A DNA stretch of 47,451 nt from Xanthobacteraceae bacterium (GTDB taxonomy: Bacteria > Pseudomonadota > Alphaproteobacteria > Rhizobiales > Xanthobacteraceae). The translations under genes and the position numbers were made by a program. This document shows positions 13,124 to 39,159 of the stretch, in pieces (within the stretch, counting starts at the first letter, position 1; each line of letters opens with the position of its first letter). Location: assembly GCA_030037885.1 (NCBI GenBank), contig JASHPU010000290.1:1-47451 (forward strand). Reading direction: 5' to 3'. Below the pieces are notes generated by a model. That model was not told where the DNA came from, ran no database searches, and was given only the letters and a program-made list of their open reading frames with translations.

Positions 13124-13164
13124 TCCGCTGGTATCTGGCGATCACCGTTCCCATGCCTAACCGC

Positions 13165-15148: not shown

Positions 15149-15759
15149 AATCGACGCTTTCGACCGTCAACGGACCTTTGCAAGCGGGGCCCGTTACGAC
15201 GGCTCTGTTCATCCGTTCTCGAAATTGTTTTCGGCGGTGCAGAATATTTAGTGAAAAGGCGGACGAACTATTATGCGGGGAGAGACCGTAGAAGGGCAAT
15301 TATTGAATTGGGAATGAAGGTGTTCGTCCGGACATCGCATCAGGAGATCGCCCATCTCAACTTGGATGGTCGAATGACGGATGGCAAGCTGTGCTCAAGG
15401 ACGTGCAACCTTTCCGTCATAAAGGCGTCGCCGGTCTTGTCATCGTGTCATCGGGACGGACAAGATCAAACGTCGCCCTATCAGCGGCGATCTTTCTTAG
15501 CAGTTGGCGGGTGACGCCCGGAGTCCAGGCACCTGAATTGCCGGAATTATTGCGGCGCAAAATGACGCCCCTGGCGCGCCGCGCCGGATGACGCTGTCAA
15601 TTGACGCAATCGGGGCCGAAGCGGACGTGCGTCCATCGAATCCAATCGGTCGGTCCTGACCCCCAGCGTCCAATCGACGGTCGATCTTGTTGTGATGCAC
15701 AACGCCATTTCGCCACGGCTGGAGCGCAATAACCTCAGCCACCTGCGGTGGTTAAAGCT
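15149..15759. other. 611-base spacer without a convincing gene
   Basis: Reading frames here are short and lack recognisable domains on both strands. The segment 15500-15600 has a TGACGC-rich character that resembles degraded repeat sequence. It separates the broken TupA gene from the convergent TRAP operon. Confidence 0.6.
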
Positions 15760-17106
15760 CTATACCCGATAGAAGACGTGAGTCAGCGCCAGCGCGATCT
15801 GCGGAAAGGCGGAAAAGACCACGACGAAGCCGAGAATGATGAGGAGGAACGGCAGCACCGCGAGGATCAGGTCCTTGAGCCCGATATCGGGCGCGATGCC
15901 CTGAATGATGAACAGGTTGAGCCCGACCGGCGGGTGAATGAGGCCGGTCTCCATGACGAGGCTCATATTGACGCCGAACCATACCGGGTTGAAGCCATGC
16001 GCCAGAAGTCCCGGCATGATCACCGGCGTGACCATCAGCACGATGGCTACGGGCGGCAGGAAGAAGCCCGCCAAGATCACCACGACATCGATCCAGAACA
16101 GGAACTCCCATTTCGACATCTGCAGGCCGACCAGCCACTGGGTCGCACTCTGGGTGATGTAGAGATAGCTCATGACGTAGCTGAAGAGGAACGCCATCGC
16201 GATGATCATCATGACCATCGAGGCGTATTCGGCGGTGCCGAGCACGATCTTCTCGATATCGCGCCAGCGATAACAGCGGTAGACGATCGCCACCATGACA
16301 AGCGTGGCGAACGCGCCGACGCCCGAGACCTCGGAGGGGGTGGCGTAACCGCCATAAAGCGCCAGCATCACCACGGCGATGATGCTGAGAAACGGCAGCA
16401 GGCGCGGCAGCGATTCGACCCGCTCGCCCCAGGTGAAATGCTCGGCTGCTATCTTGGTCGCCGGCCCGGCCGATGACCGTCCCGGCATGCGCGCGCGGCG
16501 TTGGTCGAAATAGGAGCGGACGATGACCCAGAGCGCGAACAGCGACATGAGCGCGAGGCCCGGCACGATGCCGGCGAGGAACAACTGCCCGATCGACTGC
16601 TCGGCGACGATGCCATAGAGGATCAGCGTCACCGATGGCGGGAATAGAATGCCAAGCGTGCCGCCGGAGGCGACGAGCGCCCCGGCAAAGCCCGGGGCAT
16701 AGCCGCGCTTGCGCATCTCAGGGACGCCCATGGCGCCGATCGCCGCCGCGGTGGCGCTGCTCGAGCCGCACATCGAGGCAAAGATGGCGCAGCCGATGAC
16801 ATTGGCAACGCCGAGCCCGCCGGGTAATCTGTGCGTCCAGCGATAGACCGATTCATAAAGATCCGCTGCCGCCCGCGTTCGCCCGACCGCTATGCCCATC
16901 AGCATGAAAAGCGGAATTGCAAGCAGGGTGAAATTTTCCATGCCTTCATAGAGCGTCTCGGCGAGCTGGCCCACATTCGCGATTGGCATGAATGCCAGCA
17001 TGAAGACCACCGAGACGCTGCCGAGCGCGAACGCAACCGGCATGCCCGACAGCAGCAGGATCAGCGCTACGACGATGAAGAGAATGCCGATCTCGCCTGG
17101 ACTCAC
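15760..17106 (-). CDS. TRAP transporter large permease (DctM type)
   Basis: A 448-residue inner-membrane protein with about twelve to thirteen helices, the ion-coupled translocation subunit of a tripartite ATP-independent periplasmic transporter. Family marks are LAIPLFMLMG near residue 65, FASMCGSSSATAAAIG near 110, GTLGILFPPSV near 150 and a closing region PVGLNLFIIQGI. It overlaps the small permease gene by four bases (ATGA at 17103-17106) and is the last gene of a three-gene operon read leftward. The substrate (an organic acid) is set by the binding protein and cannot be named here. Confidence 0.92.
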   Translation of the reverse strand: MSPGEIGILFIVVALILLLSGMPVAFALGSVSVVFMLAFMPIANVGQLAETLYEGMENFTLLAIPLFMLMGIAVGRTRAAADLYESVYRWTHRLPGGLGVANVIGCAIFASMCGSSSATAAAIGAMGVPEMRKRGYAPGFAGALVASGGTLGILFPPSVTLILYGIVAEQSIGQLFLAGIVPGLALMSLFALWVIVRSYFDQRRARMPGRSSAGPATKIAAEHFTWGERVESLPRLLPFLSIIAVVMLALYGGYATPSEVSGVGAFATLVMVAIVYRCYRWRDIEKIVLGTAEYASMVMMIIAMAFLFSYVMSYLYITQSATQWLVGLQMSKWEFLFWIDVVVILAGFFLPPVAIVLMVTPVIMPGLLAHGFNPVWFGVNMSLVMETGLIHPPVGLNLFIIQGIAPDIGLKDLILAVLPFLLIILGFVVVFSAFPQIALALTHVFYRV

Positions 17107-17672: not shown

Positions 17673-18682
17673 GCGACGGCGGTGGCGAGGTCGAGCAATT
17701 TCTGCCCGTCCGGAACCTGCTTGGCGAAGCTCTTCCAGGCGCTTTGTTGCGCGAGCTTTTTCCAGGCGTCGAACTGCTGGCGGTCCATGTCATGGACATG
17801 GTCGCCGGCCTTGCCGAACACCGCCGCGACCTTGCTGTCGTCGGCCCGGCACGACGATAGTACAAAGCCCTGGAGCGAGTGGCCGACCTCCATCACGATC
17901 TGCTGTTGCGCCGGCGTCAGGCTGTCATAGGTATTTTTCGACATCAGCAGCGGCTCGAACATGTACCAGAAGGTAAATTTCCGAGCCGTGGTGACGTCCT
18001 TTGCCACTTCCTCGAGGCGGAAACTCATCAGCGACGCGCTCGACGTCCACAGCGCATCGACCACGCCCGACTGCATCGCGTTGTAGGTCTGGTTCGAGGG
18101 GAAGGTCGAGATCGAAGCTCCGGCTGCCTGCAGCATCAACTCGATCATCTTGCCGGCGCCGCGCGTCTTGAGGCCCTTGACGTCGGCCGGCAGCAGGATC
18201 GCCTTGTCGCGCGAGGCGACGCCGCCGCCCTGCCATACCCAGGTGACCAACTCGGTGCCGTGATCGCGGAGATATTTCGCCAGCCACTTACCGATCGGAG
18301 CATTTTCCCACGCATAGCCCTGCTCATAGCTCTCGATCAGCGCCGGCATCAGAGTGAGATTGGTCGCCGGCAGCTTGCCGCCCGAATAGGCCAGCGGATA
18401 GACCGCCATGTCGAGCGCGCCCGACGCCATGGCGTCGAATTGCTGCACGGGCTTGAAGAGGGACGAGCCCGGATAGATTTGAAAAGTGAGCGCGCCATTC
18501 GTGCGCTTCTCGACCTCGGCGGCAAATTTTCGCGCCAGCACGTCGCGGAAGTCGATATTGGCGGGGAACTGGTGCGAGATTTTGAGGACCCGCGTTTCGG
18601 CCGCCCGCGCCGGACGCGCAAGACCGCCGACGAGGGCTGTGCCCAAGACGCTGCCGAGGAATTGCCGCTTCGTAGCCTTCAT
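17669..18682 (-). CDS. TRAP transporter substrate-binding protein (DctP type)
   Basis: A 337-residue periplasmic binding protein. The signal peptide MKATKRQFLGSVLGTALVGG, ending ARA, has a KRQFLG start that resembles a twin-arginine signal with Lys for the first Arg. The mature part starts AETRVLKISHQFP. It carries the family pattern GALTFQIYPGSSLF, and VKGLKTRGAGKMIELML with the Arg expected to clamp the substrate carboxylate. The ATG at 18682 has AGGGAGGAG upstream. It is the first gene of the operon; a 12-bp hairpin lies about 106-136 bases upstream. Confidence 0.92.
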   Translation of the reverse strand: MKATKRQFLGSVLGTALVGGLARPARAAETRVLKISHQFPANIDFRDVLARKFAAEVEKRTNGALTFQIYPGSSLFKPVQQFDAMASGALDMAVYPLAYSGGKLPATNLTLMPALIESYEQGYAWENAPIGKWLAKYLRDHGTELVTWVWQGGGVASRDKAILLPADVKGLKTRGAGKMIELMLQAAGASISTFPSNQTYNAMQSGVVDALWTSSASLMSFRLEEVAKDVTTARKFTFWYMFEPLLMSKNTYDSLTPAQQQIVMEVGHSLQGFVLSSCRADDSKVAAVFGKAGDHVHDMDRQQFDAWKKLAQQSAWKSFAKQVPDGQKLLDLATAVA

Positions 18683-18787
18683 GATGTCCGCTCCTCCCTT
18701 GGTATTCGGCACATTTGATTTACGGGCGCATTCCGGAAACCAGCGAGCCCCTTGTTCTCGAACCAACTCGGCGTCGATTGTCCACAC

Positions 18788-18818
18788 CGGGGCGGAAAGT
18801 CTACAACTTTCCGCCCCG
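18788..18818. promoter_or_regulatory. Perfect 12-bp inverted repeat upstream of the TRAP operon
   Basis: CGGGGCGGAAAG and CTTTCCGCCCCG enclose the 7-base loop TCTACAA. It lies in the probable promoter or leader of the TRAP operon and lacks a T-run, so an operator or leader structure is more likely than a terminator. Confidence 0.55.
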
Positions 18819-18866
18819 CAGAAGTAAAGCCGGGAGGCGCTGTATCCTATGCGGCAAGTTGCCATG

Positions 18867-18905
18867 GTCGCGAACGGTGAATGTCGCGAACGGTGAATGT
18901 CGCGA
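18867..18905. repeat. Tandem duplication, 16-bp unit x2.4
   Basis: GTCGCGAACGGTGAAT occurs twice in perfect tandem, then GTCGCGA of a third copy. Confidence 0.9.
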
Positions 18906-19690
18906 GCGCAGCTGATGGCACGAAAGCAGCAGTTTCGGTACTCGACCAGGTCTCTGGAGCGATGAGCGAGGGGTGCGTTTCCGCACAGGCGCTACTTCAA
19001 TCCTCGAAAGTGGTTGCCAGCGCAGCCGCTAAGGTTCGCGATTAAGCTGAAGTCTTCCTCGCAAAGGTAGCAGTTTGAACTTCGTCATCGTCAGCTGCCG
19101 GGACCTAATGTCGATTTTGTCGATGCCTGCCACCAAACAGCGGTCTTTGCCGCGATTCGCAATGCCTCACATTTGGATCGGTGCTGCTGCTCCTGAGTTC
19201 TGGACTGCCAAGGAAATCACTGTGATTGTGGCTGTACGAATCACCTCGCAACGCTCAGTCGCGCTGCGGTGCCGATCGGGAGACCCTTAGGCTCCAATCG
19301 GTGCCGTTGGTCTATTCGACAATCACCAAAAGCCGCCTCGACGCGCGCATCGTTCGCTGCATCTGCTCACGGCAGGTTTTGGCACTCTGCTACATCGAGT
19401 GGAAAACCGACGATGTCCGAAGTTGGGGAAAGCAGACGAAGGCTGGCCTAATCACCGCCAAGTGGGGACCGTTTCGGCGCTAAACGGTGACGAAGGCGCC
19501 CCGTGGATCATGAGCTTCACGTACATGCAATAGTTCGGCAGCTTAACCTCGGCAGAGGCTCCACTTATCGAGGCGGAAAATCTGTTCAGATAACCGGGAC
19601 CACCTCAATTGTGCATAGAAAACTGGGCACCGAACCACGGCTAAGTGTGGGTGGGATCGGAGAGCCATACCGCTCTGCTACTATCAACGG
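18906..19690. other. 785-base spacer without a convincing gene
   Basis: Reading frames up to 85 codons exist, but none shows a domain, a Shine-Dalgarno or coding-like composition. GC content appears lower than in flanking genes. It may hold decayed sequence. Confidence 0.55.
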
Positions 19691-19933
19691 TCACCATAGC
19701 CTTCTTCTGGCAAAGGCGTGGCCTGAGCCAGACTTGAGATAGCGTTCAAAAGTTTCTGCCTTCTGTTCGTCTGAGAACGCGACGTAGGTCACCAGTCTCC
19801 ATGGCGCATATTTGGACGTATGTGGCGATCTTCCGCCGTTATGTTCAACGATTCGCTTTCTCAGGTCCGAGGTGATGCCGACATAGCGCTGGCCCGCGAA
19901 TGCTTCGCTCTGCAGCAGATAGACATGGCGCAT
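19691..19933 (-). CDS. GIY-YIG family nuclease-like protein
   Basis: An 80-residue single-domain GIY-YIG protein of the YhbQ/UPF0213 kind. The first strand is HVYLLQS (in place of GIY), then RYVGITSDLRKRIVEHNGG, with the catalytic-type Arg in DLRKRI, and AETFERYLKSGSGH near the end. The start at 19933 is preceded by GGAGGG and matches the family N-terminus. Such proteins are short and common in rhizobia; some cut branched DNA. It lies 94 bases beyond the 3' end of tRNA-Phe, with palindromic repeats between. Confidence 0.88.
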   Translation of the reverse strand: MRHVYLLQSEAFAGQRYVGITSDLRKRIVEHNGGRSPHTSKYAPWRLVTYVAFSDEQKAETFERYLKSGSGHAFARRRLW

Positions 19934-19941
19934 TCCGGCGG

Positions 19942-20028
19942 CCCTCCTACGCCAAGGCTTCGGAGGGCATCCTGCTTCGCGATTTTGAGTGGTGCAATCC
20001 TGCGAAGCGCGTAGCGCGAAGCAGGATG
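19942..20028. repeat. Pair of palindromic repeats
   Basis: CCCTCC/GGAGGG (19942-19967, containing TACGCCAAGGCTTC) is followed by a 14-bp perfect inverted repeat CATCCTGCTTCGCG (19968-19981) and CGCGAAGCAGGATG (20015-20028). The second arm touches the 3' CCA end of tRNA-Phe and may help end its transcript. Confidence 0.7.
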
Positions 20029-20102
20029 GTGCCCAGGGGCGGAATTGAACCACCGACACCTGCATTTTCAGTGCAGTGCTCTACCAACTGAGCTACCTGG
20101 GC
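20027..20102 (-). tRNA. tRNA-Phe (anticodon GAA)
   Basis: A 76-nt cloverleaf on the minus strand. The acceptor stem is GCCCAGG/CCTGGGC with discriminator A and an encoded CCA. The D-loop is AGCTCAGTTGGTAGAGC, the anticodon arm TGCACTGAAAATGCA with GAA at the anticodon, and the T-arm GGTTCAATTCC. It reads phenylalanine codons TTC/TTT. tRNA 3' ends are frequent integration sites; I found no second copy of its 3' end in the window. Confidence 0.97.
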
Positions 20103-23866: not shown

Positions 23867-24049
23867 ATGCCTCAACCGCAAATCGTCGTGATCGGTCTCG
23901 GCGCCATGGGCAGCGCTACGCTGCTTCGGCTGGCGCGCCGCGGCGTGCGCGCCACCGGCATCGAGCAATTTCAGGTCAGCCACTGGCGAACGCGCCGCCG
24001 CTGCCTAAATTCCGGGAAGCATTGTCCGCTGTGGCACGCCAAATCTTGA
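23867..24049 (+). pseudogene. Truncated FAD-dependent oxidoreductase (DAO/sarcosine oxidase type)
   Basis: The first 36 codons read PQPQIVVIGLGAMGSATLL and then LARRGVRATGIEQFQ, the dinucleotide-binding start of monomeric sarcosine oxidase/N-methyltryptophan oxidase-like enzymes (GxGxxG type, here GLGAMGS). The sequence then passes abruptly into unrelated codons (WRTRRRCLNS) and stops after 60 residues, while family members have about 380. Only the FAD-binding strand-turn-helix remains. It is divergent from accD, 148 bases away. Confidence 0.7.
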
Positions 24050-24087
24050 GGAAGCCAACCTTGAGGAAGCCAATCTTGAGGAAACCA
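24043..24087 (+). promoter_or_regulatory. 15-bp tandem triplication carrying the ribosome binding site
   Basis: Three consecutive units, ATCTTGAGGAAGCCA, ACCTTGAGGAAGCCA and ATCTTGAGGAAACCA, end exactly at the A of the ATG at 24087. Each contains TTGAGGA, a good Shine-Dalgarno core. The last copy is the only one at usable spacing (8 bases). Confidence 0.85.
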
Positions 24088-24491
24088 TGGCCGTAGACGT
24101 TCCGGAATTGTCGATCTCGCAAGAAAAGCTCTGCTTCATCGTCGCCAAGGCGCGTGAATTCGACGTCAAGGACGAGGTCACCGACCCGGACGACGCGTCG
24201 AATCCGACCGATGACGAGGAGATCGCGGTGCTCGAGGACCACAGCGACGATCCGGTCGTGCAGGAGATCGTGGCCGTCATCCATGCCATGACCGTCGACG
24301 AGCAGGTCGATCTGGTAACGCTGGCCTGGCTCGGCCGCGGCGACGGCACGCTCGACGACTGGAACAATCTGCGCGCCGAAGCCGCGCGCGACCACAACAA
24401 TCGCACTGCTTCGTATCTGCTCGGCATGCCGCTCCTCGCCGATTATCTGGAGGAGGCCATGTCGCAGTTCGGTATGTCGTGCGCGGAGTAG
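24087..24491 (+). CDS. DUF3775 domain protein
   Basis: A 134-residue soluble, acidic protein of the DUF3775 family known from alphaproteobacteria: ISQEKLCFIVAKAREFDVKD, then EEIAVLEDHSDDPVVQEI and MTVDEQVDLVTLAWLGRGDG, ending with TASYLLGMPLLADYLEEA. Its function is unknown. The start is fixed by a Shine-Dalgarno within the tandem triplication immediately upstream. It is a single gene, with typical high GC, just left of the AT-richer operon. Confidence 0.85.
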   Translation: MAVDVPELSISQEKLCFIVAKAREFDVKDEVTDPDDASNPTDDEEIAVLEDHSDDPVVQEIVAVIHAMTVDEQVDLVTLAWLGRGDGTLDDWNNLRAEAARDHNNRTASYLLGMPLLADYLEEAMSQFGMSCAE

Positions 24492-24730
24492 CGTCTTCAA
24501 CGCGTGATCAACGCCACGCCTCGTCCTCCGAGAGATTATCCACTGACGGACTCACGCTATCGCTGAAGGCCTTGGCCGGTTGACTACAGTTAGCGACTCG
24601 CGGAATCAGTTGGGTCCGAGGTGGGTTATCGTCACAAATTTGCCGCAATTCGGCGCGGCACCCCACCCCTTTAGTGGGACCATCCGTAGACTAAGACTAG
24701 TAGTAACCCTCCAAAGCGGGGCGCAAGACA

Positions 24731-25246
24731 ATGATGCTGGCGTTCAAATTCCAACATGACAAATATTCAGACGAGCAGCTAAACCGGAGCATCACGGATG
24801 TCCTGGAGCACGGACGATTATTGTCGATGTCTACGGTCCGGCCAGACGGTAGCGCACATATAAATACAGCATTTTATTCATTCGATTCTTCGCTGCGGCT
24901 GTTCATAATTACTGACCCGAAAACGGGTCATGGCACGAACCTCGCTTCAAACCCCTCAGTAGCCGTCGCCATTTTTAACAGCCATCAAGAGTTTTGGACG
25001 CCACTAAGGGGATTGCAGCTTTTCGGCACTTGTCGTCAAACACCCCTGCTCCAAATACCACATGCCTTATCGTCCTTCGTGAAGCGCTTTCCCGTGTTCA
25101 GTGAGCTCGTAAAAAGCCCGGCGGATTTAGCGAGCAAAACGCTTGCCATTCGCTTTCACACAATCGATGTCAAAAGATTGAAGTTGTTCGATGAGCCGAC
25201 GTTCGGCGAAGAGGTGTTCATCGACCTAAAAGTACGTTCTGGATAA
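24731..25246 (+). CDS. Pyridoxamine 5'-phosphate oxidase-like split-barrel protein
   Basis: A 171-residue protein with the FMN-binding split-barrel pattern: RLLSMSTVRPDGSAHINTAFYSF, with a break, then LRLFIITDPKTGHGTNLASNP and VAVAIFNSHQEF. Such proteins bind FMN or F420 and act as oxidases, reductases or flavin carriers; true PdxH is longer and has other motifs, so this is not vitamin B6 synthesis. ATG codons at 24731 and 24734 are both possible. It is the first gene of a compact six-gene operon of clearly lower GC than its surroundings; the next gene starts four bases after its stop. Confidence 0.8.
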   Translation: MMLAFKFQHDKYSDEQLNRSITDVLEHGRLLSMSTVRPDGSAHINTAFYSFDSSLRLFIITDPKTGHGTNLASNPSVAVAIFNSHQEFWTPLRGLQLFGTCRQTPLLQIPHALSSFVKRFPVFSELVKSPADLASKTLAIRFHTIDVKRLKLFDEPTFGEEVFIDLKVRSG

Positions 25247-25250
25247 CGCC

Positions 25251-26249
25251 ATGAATAAAACATCAAACTGGAGTGCTCAGGCGCATACTCTCTTTAAACG
25301 TGCAATACGTCGATGGATTGCCTTTGGTGGCTTGATATTGGCTATTGTAACTGGATTGATCAGCGGCCTAGAGGGACTAGGAACAGCAAATTCCATTGGC
25401 CTATCTCTAGCAGTAGTAATTGCTTGCTTTTTGTTAGAGCTACTATTCTTACTGGATCGACACGATGAGTTCGCGCAAGGTCATTATGAGACGGCGCAAG
25501 CGAGATACTCTTCCTTCGAAAAAATGGAATCCAAATTGCTAGCAAAAGCCCTTCACGATGTAGAAGCTCTGATAAAAGACATTGAATCGGACGTCTCGCG
25601 AATTATAGAGTCCGATGAATGGCAAGATCGCGGCTTATTCGTTCGCTTAGTCAAGCTTGATTTGAACAATCTTGAGCTCAGATTGAAGGAGATAAAACAG
25701 AAAGGCCGAATATCGCTTGACACGCATCAACAAGCTTCTCACACAATTATTTGTAAGACGATGAGAGAGGATAAGATCAGCACGTTCAGCACTTTCATAG
25801 ACACAAGAGAAGATGTTCAACTGAACGAATTAGATATGTCATTCGGCGATGAATTGAAGCGACTTGTCGACGAAGGATTGGTAACCGTGCGGGTCGTACT
25901 AATCACACGCGCAAAGGCATCCGATTCGTCTTCAGAAATGGATAAATTGGGACCGCTAAAAGAGTTTTACGTTGGGGCGGGACGCGAACTACGTTGTCTG
26001 GACGAGATAGAGTTTGAGCGACAGTGCAATCGACTTGGGCTGGATGACGCGAAGCAGTTTCCAGAGATAGGAATTTACGGCGATAAGTATGTGTACCAAG
26101 GCATTCTTCCACCAAGAAATGTTACTCACCCGGTCGGTTATTTTATTCGCGGCAGGGAGGATGTTGCCAAACACCTCGATCTTTTCAGGCGGTGCTGGGA
26201 TAAAGGAGTGTCGCTTGCGGCTTCGCCAAACGAGGTAGAGATCACATGA
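25251..26249 (+). CDS. Two-helix membrane protein of unknown family
   Basis: A 332-residue protein. Two hydrophobic helices (about 22-42 and 47-68) form a hairpin near the N-terminus. Residues about 75-160 are charged and helical (FEKMESKLLAKALHDVEAL, LNNLELRLKEIKQKG), probably a coiled coil. The rest is a soluble alpha/beta domain with ISTFSTFIDTREDVQLNELD, VTVRVVLITRAKA, and GPLKEFYVGAGRELRCLDEI. That domain vaguely recalls phospholipase D-like sensor folds, but the HKD motif is absent and I do not recognise the family. Its stop overlaps the next start by four bases (ATGA), tying it to the enzyme genes. It could anchor or sense the pathway at the membrane. Confidence 0.75.
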   Translation: MNKTSNWSAQAHTLFKRAIRRWIAFGGLILAIVTGLISGLEGLGTANSIGLSLAVVIACFLLELLFLLDRHDEFAQGHYETAQARYSSFEKMESKLLAKALHDVEALIKDIESDVSRIIESDEWQDRGLFVRLVKLDLNNLELRLKEIKQKGRISLDTHQQASHTIICKTMREDKISTFSTFIDTREDVQLNELDMSFGDELKRLVDEGLVTVRVVLITRAKASDSSSEMDKLGPLKEFYVGAGRELRCLDEIEFERQCNRLGLDDAKQFPEIGIYGDKYVYQGILPPRNVTHPVGYFIRGREDVAKHLDLFRRCWDKGVSLAASPNEVEIT

Positions 26250-26986
26250 CTCGCACCGTTTTTATTACTGGCGGCACTGGATCAGTTGGCCAAAGTTTGG
26301 TTCGCGCGTTTTGCGTTGCAAAATTCAATGTAGAATTCCAATTTTTTACTGGGAAAGACGCCGCCGCAAAGCTAGAAGCTGAAACAGGCGCTCATGCTGT
26401 TTCTTGCGACTTAAGAAGTGAAGACCAGTGTCTCGCAATTCCTATTTTATCCAACTGCGACATTCTGATAAATAATGCCGCGGTTAACAACTGTCGTGAC
26501 GAAGGGGGAAATGTCTCTTCTGCAGACTGGCACCACACTTTGTTGGTCAACTTGACTGCGCCGTTTCTTTTATGCCGATCTGCGTTAGCGGGGATGATTT
26601 CCAGAAAATGGGGCAGGATTATCAATATATCATCCATTTATGGGTTGCGTGGTACTGAACATAATCTGCCGTACACTGTATCAAAACACGGCCTTTCCGG
26701 CCTAACGAAGACCTTGGCACGCGAATACGGCGAGCGTGGTGTTACCTGCAACGAGATCTGCCCGGGCCCGATCGATTCCGACTTGCTCAGACGAATTGGG
26801 AACTATTACTTTCGGCACGGAGGGGAATCCCTCACAGAGTTCTACAATGGCTTAGTTGCCGAAATTCCTCTTCGTAGGCTCGCGACCCCTGACGATGTCG
26901 CAGCGTGTGCCGTGTTTCTTGCGAGCGAAAGCGCTTCATACATCAATGGCTCTTCAATTCCGGTAGACGGCGGTCTAATTGCATGA
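26246..26986 (+). CDS. SDR family NAD(P)-dependent oxidoreductase
   Basis: A 246-residue classical short-chain dehydrogenase/reductase. It has the cofactor motif FITGGTGSVGQSL, the structural NNAA (usual NNAG), the catalytic serine in INISSIYG, the catalytic pair YTVSK, and the C-terminal INGSSIPVDGG shared with FabG-like enzymes. It probably oxidises or reduces a hydroxyl/keto group on the operon's product. It overlaps both the preceding gene and the following aldolase gene by four bases. The AT-rich codon choice differs from flanking housekeeping genes. Confidence 0.88.
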   Translation: MTRTVFITGGTGSVGQSLVRAFCVAKFNVEFQFFTGKDAAAKLEAETGAHAVSCDLRSEDQCLAIPILSNCDILINNAAVNNCRDEGGNVSSADWHHTLLVNLTAPFLLCRSALAGMISRKWGRIINISSIYGLRGTEHNLPYTVSKHGLSGLTKTLAREYGERGVTCNEICPGPIDSDLLRRIGNYYFRHGGESLTEFYNGLVAEIPLRRLATPDDVAACAVFLASESASYINGSSIPVDGGLIA

Positions 26987-27819
26987 AAGGAAAGACCAAT
27001 TCCCCATACCTGGAGCGGCCTGGATTAACCCGACGCCTGAGCCGAATATTCCGACGAAAGGGACATCGAACGCTCGGCGTTCCTTTTGACGACCTCCTCA
27101 TCAGTGGGCCTCTTGGCCATCTCTGTCGCTTCGACGAAATCGTTGACGAAGTAGCTTCGTCTGGAATCGATTTCACGATTGGATTTCCATGGTTTTTTCA
27201 GCGATTCGGAGCTGCCCTTTATGATGTAGCATGGATAGTGAACCTTACAGCGAGCACTGTGCGTTCTCACCATACGAGAAAAGTGGTGGTAGGTTCAGTT
27301 GATGACGCGTGTGCGATTGGAGCTGACGCGGTGGCAGTGCATGTAAATTTCACCGATGAGGCCGAAGCTGAAATGCTGTCCGCACTCAGTGCCGCGTCTC
27401 GTGACTGCCGCAGGCTTGGAATGCCGCTCTTAGCGTTAGCGTATGTGAGACGTCAAGGCGCGAATGGAGACGACAATTATTTTGCATTGAGAGACAGTGA
27501 TCCTGAAGCCTATGCAGACTTAGTTGCTCATGCCTGCCACGCGGTGGTGGAACTTGGTGCTGATCTAGTGAAAACTCAATATACCGGCTCGGTCGACTCG
27601 TTCAGACGAGTAGTTAAATCGGTTGCTCCGGTACCGGTTATTATCGCTGGCGGACCTGAGCAAGATGAAGCTATTGCGCTTAAGCTCGCGTCTGACGCTC
27701 TCCGAGCGGGAGCGAATGGCCTATGCTTTGGCAGGAATACCTACTGTCGCACCAATGTTCGACAATTCCTTGGCTGCTTGAATGTTTTCGTTCCGAAAGA
27801 CAAAGCCGGGTCCACCTAG
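26983..27819 (+). CDS. Class I aldolase of the DhnA/AroA-prime (ADH synthase) type
   Basis: A 278-residue TIM-barrel aldolase. It resembles the archaeal enzyme that joins aspartate semialdehyde to 6-deoxy-5-ketofructose 1-phosphate, and DhnA fructose-bisphosphate aldolases. Shared patterns are LGVPFDDLLISGPLG (D36 or D37 for the DHG aspartate), GADAVAVHVN, a Tyr at 154 in LALAYVRR, and the Schiff-base lysine K197 in ADLVKTQYTGSVDSFR, then PVIIAGGPEQ for phosphate. All three catalytic positions known for the archaeal enzyme (Asp, Tyr, Lys) thus seem present. The ATG at 26983 overlaps the SDR stop. No AroB-prime-like partner is nearby. The exact substrates are unknown. Confidence 0.8.
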   Translation: MKGKTNSPYLERPGLTRRLSRIFRRKGHRTLGVPFDDLLISGPLGHLCRFDEIVDEVASSGIDFTIGFPWFFQRFGAALYDVAWIVNLTASTVRSHHTRKVVVGSVDDACAIGADAVAVHVNFTDEAEAEMLSALSAASRDCRRLGMPLLALAYVRRQGANGDDNYFALRDSDPEAYADLVAHACHAVVELGADLVKTQYTGSVDSFRRVVKSVAPVPVIIAGGPEQDEAIALKLASDALRAGANGLCFGRNTYCRTNVRQFLGCLNVFVPKDKAGST

Positions 27820-27826
27820 AGGACCT

Positions 27827-28636
27827 ATGTTAGACAACTGGTCACAAATTAAGACCTGGTCGGTAGTACTACCGCCGTCACGGCCTGATAGCTGGCAGCT
27901 CTCTGTCATCGCACAACATCTAACCGGGATCGCTAGGAACGAGCCTGTAGGAGTTCTGGGCAGCACACCCGAGTTTCGTGATCTACTTGCCGAATTGCAG
28001 TTCGAAAATATTCACGTCTTTGAGCGCAACGAAGCATTCCATTACTTGGTGTCCAAGCAGCGAGTCTACCAGAATCCGGAGGTTATCGTTTGGGGCGATT
28101 GGCTGAACACCCTATCCGACACTAAGAACAGATATGCAGCAATCCTTTCCGACCTCACTTCGGGAAACATCGATTACATCAATCGAGCCAAATTCTATTC
28201 CGCCATCGCCAAAGCCCTCCACAAAGACGGCCTTTACTTAGATCGAATACTGACGCACTCGATACCGAACGAGAGAGTAGATGCGCTTTGTGAGAAGTAC
28301 GATAAGTTGCCTCTAAACCTCACAAACATAAATTACTTTTCGTGCGAGTTTCTATTCTGCAGCGAATTACTCTCGCTCTGCGGAAGGGTCGATTCGACGA
28401 AGTTCTACAAGGTTCTACACGAGCGGCTACAGACACAACGTTTGAAGAGATTTCTGGAGTTCTGCCCGCTTATTACACCATCGGATTGTGTTTGGTGGTA
28501 TGGCCGCTCATGGGGCGACCTTGCAAACGATTATGAGCGGAATTTGGATGTCATTGAGAGTATTGATGAGCCCGCAACCAGCCCTTATACACTGCGGGCT
28601 CGATTGCTAATCTCCCGCAGGCGAGACAATTCGTAA
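27827..28636 (+). CDS. Methyltransferase-like protein (divergent class I fold)
   Basis: A 269-residue protein with the outline of a SAM-methyltransferase: strand-loop VGVLGSTPEFRDLLAEL in the place of motif I (glycine-poor), an acidic residue after the second strand (IHVFERNEAF), and a motif IV-like YAAILSDLTSGNI, followed by KFYSAIAKALHKDGLYLDR, which fits the helix and strand after motif IV. The C-terminal 100 residues are unlike common families (YFSCEFLFCSELL, WWYGRSWGDLAND). ATG 27827 has AGAGG just before it; an ATG at 27782 would overlap the aldolase gene. Whether it binds SAM is uncertain. Confidence 0.65.
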   Translation: MLDNWSQIKTWSVVLPPSRPDSWQLSVIAQHLTGIARNEPVGVLGSTPEFRDLLAELQFENIHVFERNEAFHYLVSKQRVYQNPEVIVWGDWLNTLSDTKNRYAAILSDLTSGNIDYINRAKFYSAIAKALHKDGLYLDRILTHSIPNERVDALCEKYDKLPLNLTNINYFSCEFLFCSELLSLCGRVDSTKFYKVLHERLQTQRLKRFLEFCPLITPSDCVWWYGRSWGDLANDYERNLDVIESIDEPATSPYTLRARLLISRRRDNS

Positions 28637-28637
28637 A

Positions 28638-29513
28638 GTGAAGGTGGCCGTGCGCGCGCCAACTCCTCAAATCATTGAATTCAGTTCGAAGACTGGCCTT
28701 CTGCTGCAAGGCCTGTTGTTCGGCGGCATACGAGGTGCACCGACAGTAATCCACGTACATGGCTCTTGTGGAAATTTTTTGTCGTTTAGCCCCATACTAA
28801 GAGAGGCATCTATACTAACAGATCGAGGGATAAATCTTCTATCAGTGAACACGAGTGCATGCGATTGCATTCGAGAGGGCTTCAGGGGCAGCACTTATGA
28901 ATACGTCGGCGGGGCGGTCTCAGAATTTGGAGAGTGCGTCGGCGACATTGGCGGCGCAGTAGAGTACGCCTCAGCGTTTTCCTCGAAAATTGTGTTGCAG
29001 GGGCACAGCCTCGGGTGCGACCGCATCGTATATTATCAGCTCTCCACCGCAGACTGGCGCGACACAGTTCTGTTGTCTCCATGCGACAGTTACCACCTGC
29101 ATCAGATTTTTTTAGGAGGTGAAACGGTCGAAGCGCATATAGCAAGGTTAAAGCGAGAATATCCTCTGAAAGATTTCTCTTTACTGGCGCCGAAAGAATA
29201 CGGCATCCGAAACAAGGGAGAGGATTATAAAATACCTATAACGCTGCGAACATTTTTGTCGATAGCTGAGGGACCACCGTTCCAGCTATTTCGCTTAGAC
29301 CAAACCAGTGATTATTTAGTTCAAAGCCGGGCATTTGTCGGGATCGGTCAGCTTGACGACTTGCAAACGGCGGGACCGATCACAATGTTCGATCATCTGG
29401 CTCAGCGATTTAGAGGAGTTTTTAGGGCACTCCTCGCAAATAGTGATCACGAGATGGAGCCAGAAGCCGATCAACTTTTTCTGCAGTTGAGCAGATGGAT
29501 CACGCACGACTGA
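28638..29513 (+). CDS. Alpha/beta hydrolase
   Basis: A 291-residue alpha/beta hydrolase. It has an oxyanion strand VIHVHGSCGNF, the nucleophile elbow LQGHSLGCD (Ser124), an acid candidate in GIGQLDDL, and a late histidine in NSDHEMEPEAD. The layout recalls DUF1749/UPF0613 hydrolases. No signal peptide is present, so it acts in the cytoplasm, perhaps as an esterase, thioesterase or C-C hydrolase on the operon's product. The GTG start follows the previous stop by one base. It is the last gene of the operon; the convergent EamA gene ends 18 bases further on. Confidence 0.82.
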   Translation: MKVAVRAPTPQIIEFSSKTGLLLQGLLFGGIRGAPTVIHVHGSCGNFLSFSPILREASILTDRGINLLSVNTSACDCIREGFRGSTYEYVGGAVSEFGECVGDIGGAVEYASAFSSKIVLQGHSLGCDRIVYYQLSTADWRDTVLLSPCDSYHLHQIFLGGETVEAHIARLKREYPLKDFSLLAPKEYGIRNKGEDYKIPITLRTFLSIAEGPPFQLFRLDQTSDYLVQSRAFVGIGQLDDLQTAGPITMFDHLAQRFRGVFRALLANSDHEMEPEADQLFLQLSRWITHD

Positions 29514-29530
29514 ATCGAAGGTTATATTTA

Positions 29531-30457
29531 TTAGTTCAATAGTGAAATATCACCCGCGACAAAGAGCGCTGCCAATCCCTTCTGTACCATTCCCAGGCCT
29601 GACTGGTGCTCATGACTGAACCTCGGAAAGACTATGTTGAGCACTAAGCCAAATATAAAAACGAATAAGGCTGTAGTGCTGCTTACTGCCTGCACCAGGC
29701 TTAATGGCGCAAGCAGTAATGCGTAGCGGTTGCCGAGCCCGCCGCCGAGATTGATCAGCTCGTTCGAGGCGTTGATCGACAACAGCGCCGCCGTATTGGT
29801 GCGCAGCAACCTGAAGAACTGCGCGCGATAGGCGCGCACGCTCAACAAGCCGGCGCCGAACATGGCTTCGCCGGTGAACATCCAAAACGTCGTCGTCCAG
29901 AATTCGGCGCGGATGGCAAAGACCTTGAAGATCAGCGCGCTGACCGCGAGCGCAAAGCCGCAAGCCAGCATCAGCAATGCCAGTCGCGCCTTGAAGCGAC
30001 CGCCGGCGGGCGCGTGCGAGCCCGCGGCAGAGCCAGGCCGCAGCGAGACAAAGAGCGCGCCACAGATGATGAGCATGCCGCCGGCGATTTGCCGGCCGGA
30101 CAATGTTTCGCCGAGAATGAGATAAGCGAGCCCATAGCCGAACAGCGGCGAAGCCTGAAAGAACGGCGCCACGACGGACGCTTCCTCGGTCTGCAGCGCG
30201 CGCAGATAAAACAGCATCGCGCCCATGTAGAGAATGCCGGACAGCATGATCACCGCAATGCCGGCCGCGCCGGGCGCGGTCACGCCCGGTTCGTAAAACC
30301 AGATGAACGGCAACAGCAGAAGGCCGACCGACGCCGTGAATACCAGGAGCACGGCGACATTGCTGTCCTTGAAAAAGCGCTCGACCAGATATTTGTCCAA
30401 ATGCACCGAGATGGCCCACAGCACCGGGCCGCAGAAGGCGAAAACAATCCAGGACAT
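29531..30457 (-). CDS. EamA/DMT-family transporter
   Basis: A 308-residue inner-membrane protein of the drug/metabolite transporter superfamily, with ten helices in two EamA halves. Examples are WIVFAFCGPVLWAISVHLDK at the start, LRALQTEEASVVAPFFQASP and YLILGETLSGRQIAGG at the end of the first half, and LAPLSLVQAVSSTTALFVF late. It probably exports a small metabolite or takes up solutes. The last 50 codons or so (29531-29700) are clearly AT-richer than the rest, matching the adjoining operon, as if the 3' end had been replaced at the edge of an acquired segment. Confidence 0.87.
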   Translation of the reverse strand: MSWIVFAFCGPVLWAISVHLDKYLVERFFKDSNVAVLLVFTASVGLLLLPFIWFYEPGVTAPGAAGIAVIMLSGILYMGAMLFYLRALQTEEASVVAPFFQASPLFGYGLAYLILGETLSGRQIAGGMLIICGALFVSLRPGSAAGSHAPAGGRFKARLALLMLACGFALAVSALIFKVFAIRAEFWTTTFWMFTGEAMFGAGLLSVRAYRAQFFRLLRTNTAALLSINASNELINLGGGLGNRYALLLAPLSLVQAVSSTTALFVFIFGLVLNIVFPRFSHEHQSGLGMVQKGLAALFVAGDISLLN

Positions 30458-33861: not shown

Positions 33862-35025
33862 ATGGACTTCGAGCTTCCCGAGGAACTGCGCCTGTTCAAG
33901 CAATCGCTGCGGCGCTTCGTCGACAGCGAGATGATCCCGGTCGAGCGGCAGACCACGCTTGAGGACGGCGAGAAGCTGAAGCCCGAATATTACCAACGCT
34001 TCTGTCAGCGCGCCAAGGAGCTCGGTTTCTGGAAGATGGACGTTCCGGAGGCGTTCGGCGGCGCCGGGCTGTCGGTGCTGGCGCGCTCGCTGGTCGAACA
34101 GGAACTGTCGCGTTCGATCGCGCTGCCGGCGCGCGGCATGGGCGGCATCACCGGGCCGAGCGTGCGCGCGATTCTTTATTCGCTCAAGGGCGAGATGAAG
34201 GAGAAATATCTGCTGCCGGCGTTGCGCGGCGAGAAGCGGGCCTGCTTCGCGCAGACCGAGCCGGATGCCGGCTCCGACCCCGGCAGCATGCGCACCGTCG
34301 CGGTGCGCGACGGCGACCACTACGTCATCAACGGCGTCAAGCGTTTCATCAGCCACGCCGACGAAGCCGATTTCATGCAGCTGATGGCGGCGACCGACCG
34401 CGCCAAGGGCTCGCACGGCGGCATCTCCTGCTTCATCGTCGACATGAACACGCCCGGCGTCAAACTCACCGCGCGGTATTCGACCATGATGGGCGACCGG
34501 CCGTGGGAGATCGTGCTGGAGAACGTGCGCGTGCCGGCGAGCCATCGCGTCGGCGACGAAGGCGAAGGCTTTCGTCACGCCCAGCAATGGCTCGGCGCCG
34601 GCCGCGTCCGCCACGGCGCCCGCGCGCTCGGCGTCACCGAGCGCTGCCTGGAAATGGCCGCCTCATACGCCAAGCAGCGCTCGACCTTCGGCCGTCCGCT
34701 CGCCGACCGCCAGGCGGTGCAATGGATGCTGGCCGACATGTACATCGAGCTCGAGGCGGCGCGGCTTCTGGTCTACAAGGCCGCCACCGGGCTCGACAAA
34801 GGCGAGGACGCCCGCCAGGACGCTTACGTCTGCAAATACTTTTGCGACGAGATGGCGTTCCGCGCCGCCGACATGTGCATGCAGATCCACGGCGGCATCG
34901 CGCTCACCACCGACCTGCCGATCGAAAAGTTCTGGCGCCAGCAGCGCAGCTTCCGCATCACCGAGGGCGCCAGCGAAGTGATGAAGATGGTGATCGCCCG
35001 TCACGTGCTGAAGACATATGGCTAG
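33862..35025 (+). CDS. Acyl-CoA dehydrogenase
   Basis: A complete 387-residue FAD-dependent acyl-CoA dehydrogenase, which introduces the alpha-beta double bond in acyl-CoA. It has an N-terminal helical domain (ELPEELRLFKQSLRRFVDSE), the FAD site CFAQTEPDAGSD, the middle beta domain, the QRSTFGRPLADRQAVQW helix and the end MQIHGGIALTTDLPIEKF, then RSFRITEGASEV with the catalytic-type Glu. ATG 33862 has a GGAGGGAG run upstream. Substrate chain length cannot be read. It could work with the CoA ligase at 30992. Confidence 0.93.
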   Translation: MDFELPEELRLFKQSLRRFVDSEMIPVERQTTLEDGEKLKPEYYQRFCQRAKELGFWKMDVPEAFGGAGLSVLARSLVEQELSRSIALPARGMGGITGPSVRAILYSLKGEMKEKYLLPALRGEKRACFAQTEPDAGSDPGSMRTVAVRDGDHYVINGVKRFISHADEADFMQLMAATDRAKGSHGGISCFIVDMNTPGVKLTARYSTMMGDRPWEIVLENVRVPASHRVGDEGEGFRHAQQWLGAGRVRHGARALGVTERCLEMAASYAKQRSTFGRPLADRQAVQWMLADMYIELEAARLLVYKAATGLDKGEDARQDAYVCKYFCDEMAFRAADMCMQIHGGIALTTDLPIEKFWRQQRSFRITEGASEVMKMVIARHVLKTYG

Positions 35026-35252
35026 GCCGGACGCCGCCTATACGCATGAATTGCCATGTCGCCATGGCCCCATTGACGATCGAACGGCGGGCTTCAAAAA
35101 CAACGCTAAGTGCCAATCATGCCGTTTTGGCGCCGCCGCATTACGACAATGGGGCGCACTACGGATGTTTTTTATCCATGTCGAATAATCCAGGATTCGT
35201 GTGATTGCGCGCAGCGGTTGTCGATGCCTGCGCAACCAGCTATAGGCAAAGC

Positions 35253-37274
35253 ATGACTGAGGTCGCACGCCGTGAAATTAAGGGAGGAAAGGCTCAATCC
35301 GTACCGGGCGGGAATGAACCCGTTATCTCCGAGCCCGCGAGGCAATCTTCACCGTCGCTTGAAGCGTCGCCGGGACATTTGCCTCCCAGGATTTCACTTG
35401 TGATATGCAGCCGCAACCGCGTCGGCCAGCTCGCTGCGACCCTCGGCAGGTTGGATTTGGCGGATCTGACGCGACACGCGGTCGAGGTGAATCTTATCGA
35501 TAGCGCCTCCACCGACTCGACCTACGAGGTCATGCGCGAGTTCAAGAAAAAAAACAGCTTTCCCGTGAACATAGCTCAAGCCGAGCATCCGGGGCTGGGT
35601 TTGGCACGGAACGTTGGAATTAAGATTGCGTCGGGTGACGTAATCGTCTTTACCGACGACGATTGCTACCTCGGCGCAAACTATTTCGCCAGCCTGTCAA
35701 CATTATGGGACGAACGGTCGTTCCAGTACGGCGGCGGCCAAGTTCTCATGTACGATGACAGCCTCGATCCCCGCATCGCAAGGTTGACGATCCACCGTCG
35801 GCAGAACATTCCGCCTCACGTCGTTCTTATCCCAGGTTCGATACAGGGTGCGAACATGTTCTTTGCCCGAGAGGTGTTTCAGCGGGCCGGACCGTTCAAC
35901 GAGAACATGGGATCAGGAACGCCATTTGCGTGCGAAGACGTCGAAATGGCCAGCCGCGCTTCCCTGCACGGCTTTCGCGGTGTGCTGCTGCCGGAGCTGA
36001 AGGTCGTGCATGATCACCGGCGCAAACGCGGGTCGCCTGAGGCCGACCGCACCGCGGAAGGCTACGACTTTGGACGGGGCGCTTATTATGCGGCGTTGTT
36101 CGCCGCCGGCTACATACCGCGATCGGAACTGCCAAACATGGCAAAGCTGCTGCGCGAGATAGACGGCGCCGAGCGCTATCTCGACCTTGCGGCTAAAAGC
36201 GATCGCATAAAACCAACTGAAGTCGAACCAGGCGAAGATCGCCCGCAACACCCCGATTTTGTACGCTCCACAAGGGATGAGCCGATACCTCCGAGCGAAG
36301 GCGTTGCGAATGCGCCATCCGAAACCGCCAAGTCGTCGCCTGTCGGACCGCTGGGACCGGCTGGCAAATGTTCAAGGTTGCCCATCAGATACAACGAGCT
36401 GCAAATCAGCAGCGACCTGTTAGATCAACGGCATTGCCCGGTCCGCGCCAAGGTTTTCATTTGCTCCACACCGCGGACCGGAAGCTATTTGTTGTGCCGG
36501 GCGATGATCCACCATGGTATCGGCGTTCCGCACGAGTATTTTCACGTTTTGCATGCAGCAATAATCGGACCGCGAGTCGGTATCAACGCGCTGCAGAACG
36601 GCTGGCTGTTAAAAACGGATGCCGGGGCACGGCGGGCTTACATCAGGGAGCTCATGTATCGGCGTACCGTCAACGGTATCTTCAGCGCGAAGGTGCAATG
36701 GTCGGAATTCGCCCAGTTTCTCAATAATCCGGAGGGCCTCGAACTATTTCAAAACGGCCACTTCTTGTACCTTTATCGCGAGGATCTTCTGGCCCAGGCG
36801 ATTTCACTTCACATCAGCTATCAGACGGGCCGCTGGGGCTTCGACGGTCTGGTTACTTCGGAGCCTCGCTCCGAGCCGAATTTTCTCGATAACGCGTCGA
36901 TCAATAAATATCTGGAAGAAATTTCCGCGCACGACATGGCCTGGCGCAGGTTCTTTACCCGCCATCGGATATCACCTCTCACCGTTTCATACGAAAGCCT
37001 GATAGCCGACACCGGCAGCGTGCTGCGCTCGATGGTGGAGACCTTCAGTTTGGAGGTTTCCGCAACTGACTTCGCATACACGGAGGAAAGATCGGCAGAC
37101 GCTCGCGATCCCCGGCTCCCGCTGGTAGCCGAGATCAAGGCGCACTTTCTGGATGCGCATCAACAGGTATTTCAGGCTCCGCAAGCTGCTATCAAGACAA
37201 CTGGCAGCGCTGCGTCGACCAAGGCGGCCGCCGCGGCGTCGCCAGCGGGATCGTGCAGCCCGATGCGAAAATAA
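35253..37274 (+). CDS. Fusion of a family 2 glycosyltransferase and a Stf0-type sulfotransferase
   Basis: A 673-residue two-domain protein. Residues about 45-300 are a GT-A glycosyltransferase: RISLVICSRNRVGQL, EHPGLGLARNVGI, the metal site FTDDDCYLG (DDD at about 135-137), and GANMFFAREVF. A Pro/Ser-rich linker runs to about 395. Residues about 400-640 resemble Stf0 sulfotransferases: the PAPS-binding loop VFICSTPRTGSYLLCR (from 401), VPHEYFH, and FSAKVQWSEF. It may transfer a sugar and then sulfate it on a surface glycan or glycolipid. The tail is low-complexity Ala/Ser. ATG 35253 has AGGC upstream. The next glycosyltransferase gene follows within 33 bases. Confidence 0.85.
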   Translation: MTEVARREIKGGKAQSVPGGNEPVISEPARQSSPSLEASPGHLPPRISLVICSRNRVGQLAATLGRLDLADLTRHAVEVNLIDSASTDSTYEVMREFKKKNSFPVNIAQAEHPGLGLARNVGIKIASGDVIVFTDDDCYLGANYFASLSTLWDERSFQYGGGQVLMYDDSLDPRIARLTIHRRQNIPPHVVLIPGSIQGANMFFAREVFQRAGPFNENMGSGTPFACEDVEMASRASLHGFRGVLLPELKVVHDHRRKRGSPEADRTAEGYDFGRGAYYAALFAAGYIPRSELPNMAKLLREIDGAERYLDLAAKSDRIKPTEVEPGEDRPQHPDFVRSTRDEPIPPSEGVANAPSETAKSSPVGPLGPAGKCSRLPIRYNELQISSDLLDQRHCPVRAKVFICSTPRTGSYLLCRAMIHHGIGVPHEYFHVLHAAIIGPRVGINALQNGWLLKTDAGARRAYIRELMYRRTVNGIFSAKVQWSEFAQFLNNPEGLELFQNGHFLYLYREDLLAQAISLHISYQTGRWGFDGLVTSEPRSEPNFLDNASINKYLEEISAHDMAWRRFFTRHRISPLTVSYESLIADTGSVLRSMVETFSLEVSATDFAYTEERSADARDPRLPLVAEIKAHFLDAHQQVFQAPQAAIKTTGSAASTKAAAAASPAGSCSPMRK

Positions 37275-37306
37275 GGTGTGGGCTCACACAGTTGTGCCGG
37301 AAATGT

Positions 37307-38035
37307 ATGAATATGATCCCGAAGACCCGTGTTTATTGCATCTCTCTAGCCAACTCCGCGAACAGGCATGCGTTCGCTTCGAACGCTTCAAGGTATTCGG
37401 TGTACTTTGATTTTTTTGATGCCGTTTCCGTCGATGACCTCAGGCACGGTGCAACCGTAGAGGGATGCAAAATCGACATTACTGATCTGGCGTGGACGTT
37501 TCACGAACGTCCTGATCCGCGACGGCAACAGGCGCCATTGCTGTTTACTGAAATCGGCTGTGCCTACTCGCACATCCTGTGCTGGCAGCGAGCCAAGCAA
37601 GAAGGCGCCGATTACCTGGTCGTGTTCGAGGACGACGCGGTCATGTGCCGCTCGTTCGACGATATCGCGGTCCCACCTGATGCCGACATGCTCTATATCA
37701 GCAACAGGATGCCGCGGAATTCCGTGGGCGAAGCCGTCGGATACAGAGGCTCCGGCACCGAAGGCTACATGCTATCGCGCGCCGGCATCATAAAATGTCT
37801 GGAAATCTTCTCCGTCCTTTATATGCCGCTCGACCTCCAGCTCATTGCGCATCAACGGTCGATGCATGGACGTGGGTTGAGCCAATATCGAAGAGCGTTG
37901 TCGGATGATCTCTATCTAAACGCTTACGTCACGCCGCAGCCCTACTGCTTCCATCCGATTGGGCGCTCTCAGGTGCATCAGCCGGCTTTTGCGCAACACA
38001 TGCCGGGCATTAAATCTTCTCCGTCGGATCGGTGA
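37307..38035 (+). CDS. Family 25 glycosyltransferase
   Basis: A 242-residue LgtB/LpsA-like glycosyltransferase of LPS or glycan synthesis. It has the family start TRVYCISLANSANRHAF, a central LFTEIGCAYSHILCWQRA, and the metal-binding VVFEDDAVMC, with GTEGYMLSRAGI later. The ATG at 37307 gives the usual N-terminus; a GTG at 37253 would add 18 residues and overlap the preceding gene. It is co-directional with the sulfotransferase fusion and probably acts on the same glycan. Confidence 0.85.
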   Translation: MNMIPKTRVYCISLANSANRHAFASNASRYSVYFDFFDAVSVDDLRHGATVEGCKIDITDLAWTFHERPDPRRQQAPLLFTEIGCAYSHILCWQRAKQEGADYLVVFEDDAVMCRSFDDIAVPPDADMLYISNRMPRNSVGEAVGYRGSGTEGYMLSRAGIIKCLEIFSVLYMPLDLQLIAHQRSMHGRGLSQYRRALSDDLYLNAYVTPQPYCFHPIGRSQVHQPAFAQHMPGIKSSPSDR

Positions 38036-38319
38036 AGCTTGCCGTGGTTTCGATCGTCAGGCCGGCGAACCACCGTCGGGAGGCGCGTCTTTCATGAAAG
38101 ATATGTAATGGATCGGCCACTTCGTCGCCCGTGGTTTGGCGCAATTTCGCCTTTCTCTTCAATAGTGTTGGCCGACGGCGGCGGCATTGGAACTTTATCG
38201 GCACTGCGCGTTAACCATGGCGGTAACGCTGGGGTAATAAAATCTGCGCAGTGTCGTAAGGCAATGTCGTAAGGATGGACCTGCCTTAAGGGCGGCGGGA
38301 CCGAAAGAGGCCGAGGACC
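38036..38319. other. Upstream region of the outer-membrane barrel gene
   Basis: There is no gene in these 284 bases. A 13-bp tandem duplication (TGTCGTAAGGCAA, then TGTCGTAAGG) at 38252-38274 lies about 50 bases before the start. TAAGGCA and TGCCTTA around 38257-38288 are inverted. These could be regulatory; no clear promoter boxes can be called. Confidence 0.5.
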
Positions 38320-39003: not shown

Positions 39004-39159
39004 CTTCCGTCATTCTCGTTGCGCGCTAGTGCCCGGTTTTTCAGTTATTTCCGGGCCTTAGCCAAAAGGTTAAGCTTGCATTAATAGTGGGTAATCTATA
39101 CCTATAGGTCACTGAGATGAGCGGAATGCCCCCACCTATCGCTCATTGGAGAAACTGCC

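Follow-up and report, generated by a model that had tools for sequence, protein, structure and literature searches.

What is a compact block of six AT-rich genes doing in the genome of a member of the Xanthobacteraceae, and how did it get there? The block lies at positions 24731-29513 of a 47,451-nucleotide stretch of contig JASHPU010000290.1 (assembly GCA_030037885.1), the whole of which is referred to here as the window, and a sequence-only reading of this DNA had described it as an operon, perhaps acquired horizontally, that is built around an AroA-prime-like aldolase. That observation was confirmed and its interpretation was partly supported: the arrival of the block is well resolved, and its function is not. 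The six genes were acquired horizontally, together with the 3' end of a neighboring transporter gene, and they possibly form an accessory metabolic operon around a keto-phosphate aldolase with an unusual acceptor, a reading that is preferred here tentatively.

Arrival of the six-gene block

All six reading frames are intact, tightly packed and on the plus strand, in the order P0001 (24731-25246), a protein of the predicted flavin mononucleotide (FMN)-type split-barrel class (PNPOx_N); P0002 (25251-26249), a two-transmembrane protein, as judged by hydropathy, with a long helix and an unassigned cytosolic domain; P0003 (26246-26986), a classical short-chain dehydrogenase/reductase (SDR); P0004 (26983-27819), a divergent DhnA/DeoC-LacD class I aldolase; P0005 (27827-28636), a divergent methyltransferase/aminopropyltransferase-like protein; and P0006 (28638-29513), an alpha/beta-hydrolase-like protein. 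The successive junctions are a 4-nt gap, two 4-nt overlaps, a 7-nt gap and a 1-nt gap, so the open reading frames are arranged as originally described, with genes that overlap or nearly abut. The start of P0005 was set at the ATG at 27827, which is preceded by AGAGGA; the longest open reading frame opens at 27782. We infer that the six genes form one transcript.

The inserted DNA that carries the block is AT-richer, measures about 5.0 kb and lies at the 3' end of a drug/metabolite transporter (DMT)/EamA gene, between a DUF3775 gene and a coenzyme A (CoA)-ligase-like gene. The GC content of 24521-29554 is 0.491, compared with 0.617 for the whole window, and the lowest 1-kb value of the window (0.455) falls within this island. 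GC at third codon positions (GC3) is 0.45-0.57 in the six operon genes and 0.82-0.90 in the four reliably framed neighbors used for comparison (accD, the DUF3775 gene, the CoA-ligase-like gene and the native part of the DMT gene); neighbors with an uncertain or wrong reading frame, folC among them, were excluded. Both measures set the island apart, in agreement with the AT-richness relative to the flanks that had been noted earlier.

Evidence for acquisition extends beyond composition. The DUF3775 gene was sought in 20 genomes of the genus and was matched in 12, namely its own and 11 others, and stretches from those 11 were compared. Four of them (L037, L038, L039 and L041) carry DUF3775 and the DMT transporter on one stretch, and all four have an empty site: the matched flanks end no more than about 100 bp apart, and the six operon genes are unmatched on these stretches. 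Six stretches (L042-L047) match DUF3775 alone and are uninformative for the insertion site. On the remaining one (L040, from G1029), accD and DUF3775 are present, the DMT transporter was not found, and the site differs again.

The junctions themselves are visible at the level of single genes. In the closest relative, L037 (accD 99.7% and DUF3775 96% identical), homology ends at window base 24520, where the blastn matches to the other three empty-site stretches also end, and the DNA from 24521 to 29530 has no counterpart at the empty site. Just outside it, the minus strand at 24497-24520 still holds what is left of the transporter gene's original 3' end, now cut off from the rest of the gene, which includes the complement of the stop codon (TCA, 24497-24499) and aligns to the 3' end of the DMT gene in L037 and L038. 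At the other side, the present DMT/EamA gene is a hybrid on the minus strand. Its native part (29726-30457; EamA, 62.8 bits) is 94% identical to L037 DNA across the blastn alignment, and its donor-derived 3' end occupies 29531-29725, with a right edge at about 29720-29731 and a GC content of 0.456 over 29531-29688. Compared with L037, amino acids 1-256 are identical at 242 of 256 positions, and amino acids 257-308 at only 24 of 52 (Fisher test, head versus tail, p ~1e-15); DNA identity is 8-15 of 20 up to about 29731 and 17-20 of 20 beyond it. Over the same tail the hybrid matches the four relatives at 24-25 of 52 positions, whereas L038, L039 and L041 match L037 at 35-46 of 52, although against the most distant pair of relatives (L037-L041, 35/52) the difference reaches a p of only 0.047. 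The last ~60 codons of the transporter gene are foreign, swapped for those of a donor homologue.

Since the transporter tail is also foreign, the operon lay next to a homologous transporter gene in the donor; and since the donor DNA ended in that homologue, entry took one homologous crossover inside the gene and one illegitimate join, 24 bp from where the gene formerly ended. The same one-sided junction pattern characterizes homology-facilitated illegitimate recombination, in which only one of the two joins is homologous, as outlined in an excerpt of PMC2884548; the difference is that the present island is known from its sequence footprint alone. Other routes were considered and rejected. No integrase or transposase, which a mobile element with its own recombinase would carry, is encoded among the six genes; the only tRNA gene of the window is at 20027-20102, away from the site; and no repeat pair has copies at both junctions. 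A chimeric contig is unlikely, because the flanks keep the accD-DUF3775 and DMT-CoA-ligase-like order of L037 and L039. A lead to the donor came from genome G252, which is 53% identical over the transporter tail; none of the six operon genes is present on the 18 kb of G252 that was compared. The island DNA had no match among plasmids, and a P0004-like gene was found in 0 of 19 congeners at an E value of 1e-22 (genomes 60-99% complete). Taken together, these data show that the block was acquired horizontally, and the junctions provide a clear natural case of entry of foreign DNA by one-sided homology, with the empty site visible in several relatives.

The aldolase P0004 and its closest known systems

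P0004 belongs to the DeoC/LacD (DhnA) class I aldolases, with a PF01791 score of 118.7 bits against a cut-off of 23.8, the Schiff-base residue K197 and D36. Its top NCBIfam matches are models of 2-amino-3,7-dideoxy-D-threo-hept-6-ulosonate (ADH) synthase; however, it scores below their cut-offs (TIGR01949, 181.4 versus 299.45 bits; NF005556, 204.6 versus 241 bits), and far below that of the BagB/FevI model NF041223 (129.2 versus 500 bits). The label of AroA-prime-like aldolase thus held at the level of the superfamily and not at that of the ADH synthases, and 3-dehydroquinate (DHQ) synthase II (PF01959), which often accompanies such aldolases, was not found in the operon or in its own genome, which is 90.5% complete; a control search with PF01959 was positive in 3 of 14 genomes.

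The closest relative in the Protein Data Bank is the ADH synthase MJ0400, with 38.6% identity over the aligned segment. An active-site alignment of P0004 with 13 comparators (14 rows) showed that K197, D36, G223, G224, G250 and R251 are invariant in all rows. P0004 retains the Schiff-base Lys, the Asp, the Tyr and four of the five phosphate-site residues and has them in common with MJ0400. Tyr154, present in 12 of 13 comparators with LsrF as the exception, is taken for the counterpart of the proton-donor Tyr of the Thermoproteus tenax and Methanocaldococcus jannaschii enzymes. Two places are changed in P0004: Asp37 replaces the His adjacent to the catalytic Asp (His in 13/13 comparators), and Phe68-Pro69-Trp70 stands where the comparators have H/Q/T-K/R/P-G, with Gly at position 70 in every one of them. 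The Asp-His and His-Lys-Gly motifs of MJ0400, which we chose from the alignment as marks of ADH synthase, are therefore absent from P0004. The gene neighborhood differs as well, in that the operon has SDR and hydrolase-like genes where DHQ synthase II would be sought.

LsrF and the archaeal class I fructose-1,6-bisphosphate (FBP) aldolases are also sequence relatives of P0004, although their operons are unlike the six-gene block. Lys203, Asp57, Gly226, Gly227, Gly253 and Arg254 of LsrF, whose functional roles are given in an excerpt of PMC2728841, correspond to K197, D36, G223, G224, G250 and R251; LsrF differs in that it is without the Tyr kept in P0004 and has Asp251 where P0004 has Cys248 (same excerpt). 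The phosphate-binding His is named His54 in that source, whereas in the Salmonella LsrF sequence the conserved His next to Asp57 carries the number 58, which is probably a difference in numbering. The same excerpt gives Glu in place of this His for one FBP aldolase of its comparison, and so an acid such as Asp37 need not abolish phosphate binding. The DhnA-type aldolases BagB, FevI and GriI of 3-amino-4-hydroxybenzoate (3,4-AHBA) clusters resemble P0004 in their superfamily and in belonging to accessory biosynthetic clusters (PMC6692506, in part); they differ from it in the score given above, and no 3,4-AHBA synthase-like gene is among the six.

In a tree of 13 rows, no terminal branch is longer than that of P0004 (2.28, compared with a median of 0.59), which makes its placement unsure; P0004 branches on the ADH-synthase side, apart from two sequences from sugar-type operons, at a weakly supported fork (82/83). 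In this family, sequence is no sure guide to the reaction, as the portion of PMC4162585 consulted reports FBP aldolase activity for the Halobacterium salinarum homologue of MJ0400, with transaldolase activity not detected there. Among the phage protein families of PHROGs, P0004 matches one uncharacterised family (E 5e-7), and all other matches are at 0.03 or worse.

Partner proteins and the search for the set elsewhere

Together with the aldolase, P0001 and P0003 pass Pfam cut-offs. P0001 scores 35 bits against PF01243 (cut-off 28.1), and its cofactor would be FMN or F420. P0003 scores 159.5 bits against PF13561 and has the glycine-rich motif TGGTGSVG, an NNA motif, the Ser-Tyr-Lys set (S130/Y143/K147) and VDGG. 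No Pfam or NCBIfam model scores above its cut-off for P0005 or P0006, whose assignments are drawn from weak matches and motifs. P0006 has HVHG at 39, GHSLG at 122 and candidate Asp-His pairs at 252 and 270, and it matches DUF1749 below cut-off (E 0.014); we take the Ser-Tyr-Lys of P0003 and the GHSLG of P0006 to be catalytic motifs. P0005 fails the Spermidine synthase model PF01564 (15.6 versus 22.9 bits; Spermine_synth E 0.012), no other methyltransferase model is among its matches, and its AlphaFold2 model, made without an alignment, is poor (mean confidence, pLDDT, 40). P0005 may also resemble methyltransferases that carry a GxTPE motif. For P0002, the two hydrophobic segments, at about 19-72, and the lack of any family above cut-off (FeeM, E 0.005-0.01, is below it) agree with the two-helix membrane protein first described; its AlphaFold2 model, likewise made without relatives, is poor (pLDDT 41) and shows a long helix.

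The set was sought in samples of a few hundred genomes each, in plasmids and in viruses, and by scans of genome_contigs that detect close relatives or one gene layout; with samples so small and scans so narrow, absence of the operon elsewhere is not proven, and the operon is an orphan as far as searched. P0005 was found in 1 of 249 genomes of the order and P0006, at 1e-5, in 1 of 249 genomes of the phylum, in each case its own. A P0005 match in 1 of 203 genomes of another class of the phylum (E 0.005) contains an internal stop and was taken as chance. In genome_contigs, 20 pattern matches to P0005 yielded none that was confirmed, and viral_contigs gave none at the set threshold. P0002 and P0005 had no match in plasmids, where P0005 at E values up to 10 gave four weak matches of 0.2 or worse.

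More distant relatives of the aldolase were recovered. P0004 was found at 1e-30 in 1 of 385 genomes of the class (its own) and in 3 of 296 genomes of a family sample (its own and two at 31-32%); at 1e-25 it was found in 1 of 210 genomes of a third class (G1247, 35%) and in 0 of 78 of a second, a search without a positive control, so that its empty result carries no weight. By eye, the locus in G1247 (L058) holds a DhnA aldolase followed by DHQ synthase II, with FAD-monooxygenase-like and AMP-ligase genes, and resembles a 3,4-AHBA-type cluster; at the two family loci (L059 and L060, in G878 and G977), the gene after the DhnA aldolase looks like DHQ synthase II. Near these two family relatives, the remaining operon genes gave no match better than E 0.1.

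Plasmids gave 265 records for P0004 and 2094 for P0003, all below 60% identity, and weak matches for P0001 (1 record) and P0006 (2 records), whose surroundings, where annotated, are unlike the operon. Six of the 265 P0004 neighborhoods were examined. DHQ synthase II is present in three, and two are sugar-type operons (a TRAP transporter with a kinase; a PfkB kinase with an ABC ATPase). The sixth, on a haloarchaeal plasmid, carries, on the opposite strand and at a distance of about 0.8 kb, an SDR with 27% identity to part of P0003; the other operon proteins were unmatched there at E 1, and it was not counted as a relative of the operon. Phages gave three P0004 records at 27-29%, including one LsrF, and searches of viral_contigs for the aldolase and the hydrolase gave nothing useful. 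Among the papers listed by full-text literature searches, no DhnA-aldolase cluster of this composition was recognised, and a claim of novelty has little to stand on from that.

Proposed function and rival readings

The enzymes encoded in the block are consistent with a small-molecule pathway without a match to a known cluster, as the sequence-only reading had suggested. If the accessory metabolic operon preferred here is a pathway, the donor would be a phosphorylated keto compound bound through Lys197 of P0004, Asp36 would act as the base and Tyr154 would supply the proton, and the enzyme would join this donor to, or split it from, an aldehyde unlike that of ADH synthase or FBP aldolase. P0003 would then reduce or oxidise a keto or hydroxy group of the aldolase product or substrate, and P0006 would release an ester, lactone or thioester, while the transferase-like P0005 may tailor, the flavin-type P0001 may reduce, and P0002 may anchor or sense at the membrane. 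Biosynthesis of a small polyhydroxy metabolite is weakly preferred over catabolism, because P0004 lies nearer to the ADH-synthase side than to the sugar-operon sequences and because the operon has no kinase, importer or regulator. It is doubtful, but conceivable, that P0004 represents a separate DhnA branch, not seen before, whose acceptor side has been rebuilt, and that it works with the SDR, the transferase-like protein and the hydrolase in a so far undescribed pathway, one that yields a small polyhydroxy or branched metabolite and moves between bacteria next to a DMT exporter gene. Were the operon a pathway, it would offer an uncharted aldolase that forms C-C bonds with an altered active site, within a group of six genes small enough to be tested together.

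Several results weigh against a metabolic operon of this kind. No dedicated transporter, regulator or carrier protein is encoded in the operon, and the convergent transporter is native except for its 3' end. For three of the six proteins, no family model reaches its cut-off. Upstream of the operon, a simple promoter scan gave no promoter-like site on the plus strand; the scan gave 2 promoter-like and 5 terminator-like sites in all, at or below the shuffle levels of 4.9 and 6.1, and so it speaks neither for nor against a single transcript. The sequence-only reading had looked to co-occurrence in other genomes for support, and no co-occurring gene set was found in the genome, plasmid or viral samples searched, so that the functional linkage of the genes is argued from their packing alone; this null result reflects the failure to find close relatives of the proteins, and not an observed scattering of the genes. 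A search for the SDR-aldolase junction, with a pattern that fixes an upstream SDR and GAC for its last Asp and thus misses other layouts, returned no match in viral_contigs and 11 loci in genome_contigs, none with the SDR and aldolase pair of the window; tblastn on these loci found DhnA in L015 and L018 without this SDR, and an SDR match in L016 without the aldolase.

Among the alternatives, a catabolic operon survives best, although we consider it unlikely. The hydrolase would open an ester or lactone, the SDR would oxidise the product, and the aldolase, which belongs to a reversible class, would cleave it to a keto-phosphate for central metabolism, much as the two sugar-type operons among the plasmid neighborhoods might suggest. 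However, the absence of a kinase, a transporter and a regulator argues against this, as does the position of P0004 in the tree, with the caveat that the fork is weak. Ranked behind it, and improbable in our estimate, is that the genes are passenger DNA, an arbitrary piece of the donor that was drawn in by transporter homology and does not constitute one pathway in this host. This stays a serious rival because one-sided homology imports whatever adjoins the homologous gene (PMC2884548, in part), and the lack of co-conserved relatives in the samples is in its favor; against it are the 4-nt overlaps and 1-7-nt gaps that run across six genes without a broken frame.

A defence or stress-sensing island, with P0002 as a membrane sensor and metabolic effectors beside it, is very improbable: the block is small, AT-rich, not found in the congeners searched and encodes a transmembrane, long-helix protein without a known family, but PADLOC matches none of the six proteins, which led us to reject any known defence system, and four of the six resemble enzymes that act on small molecules. 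Least probable of all is a route through ADH synthase and DHQ synthase II toward DHQ or 3,4-AHBA, which the best NCBIfam matches of P0004 and three of the six plasmid neighborhoods would favor and which was rejected on the sub-cut-off scores, the failure to find DHQ synthase II and the changed active-site motifs.

Some minor features were also observed. The partly palindromic sequence CCCCTTTAGTGGG lies at 24666-24678, upstream of the operon; a regulon for it was not found, its 15-mer form occurring otherwise in its own genome at two places with 2 mismatches, compared with five for the backward control. Three tandem 15-bp units resembling AGCCAACCTTGAGGA, at 24038-24095, abut the start of the DUF3775 gene. 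Further dips in GC, to 0.53-0.59, occur in the window at 13000-16000, 18500-20000, 35000-38500 and 39000-40500, and the dip at the island is the deepest.

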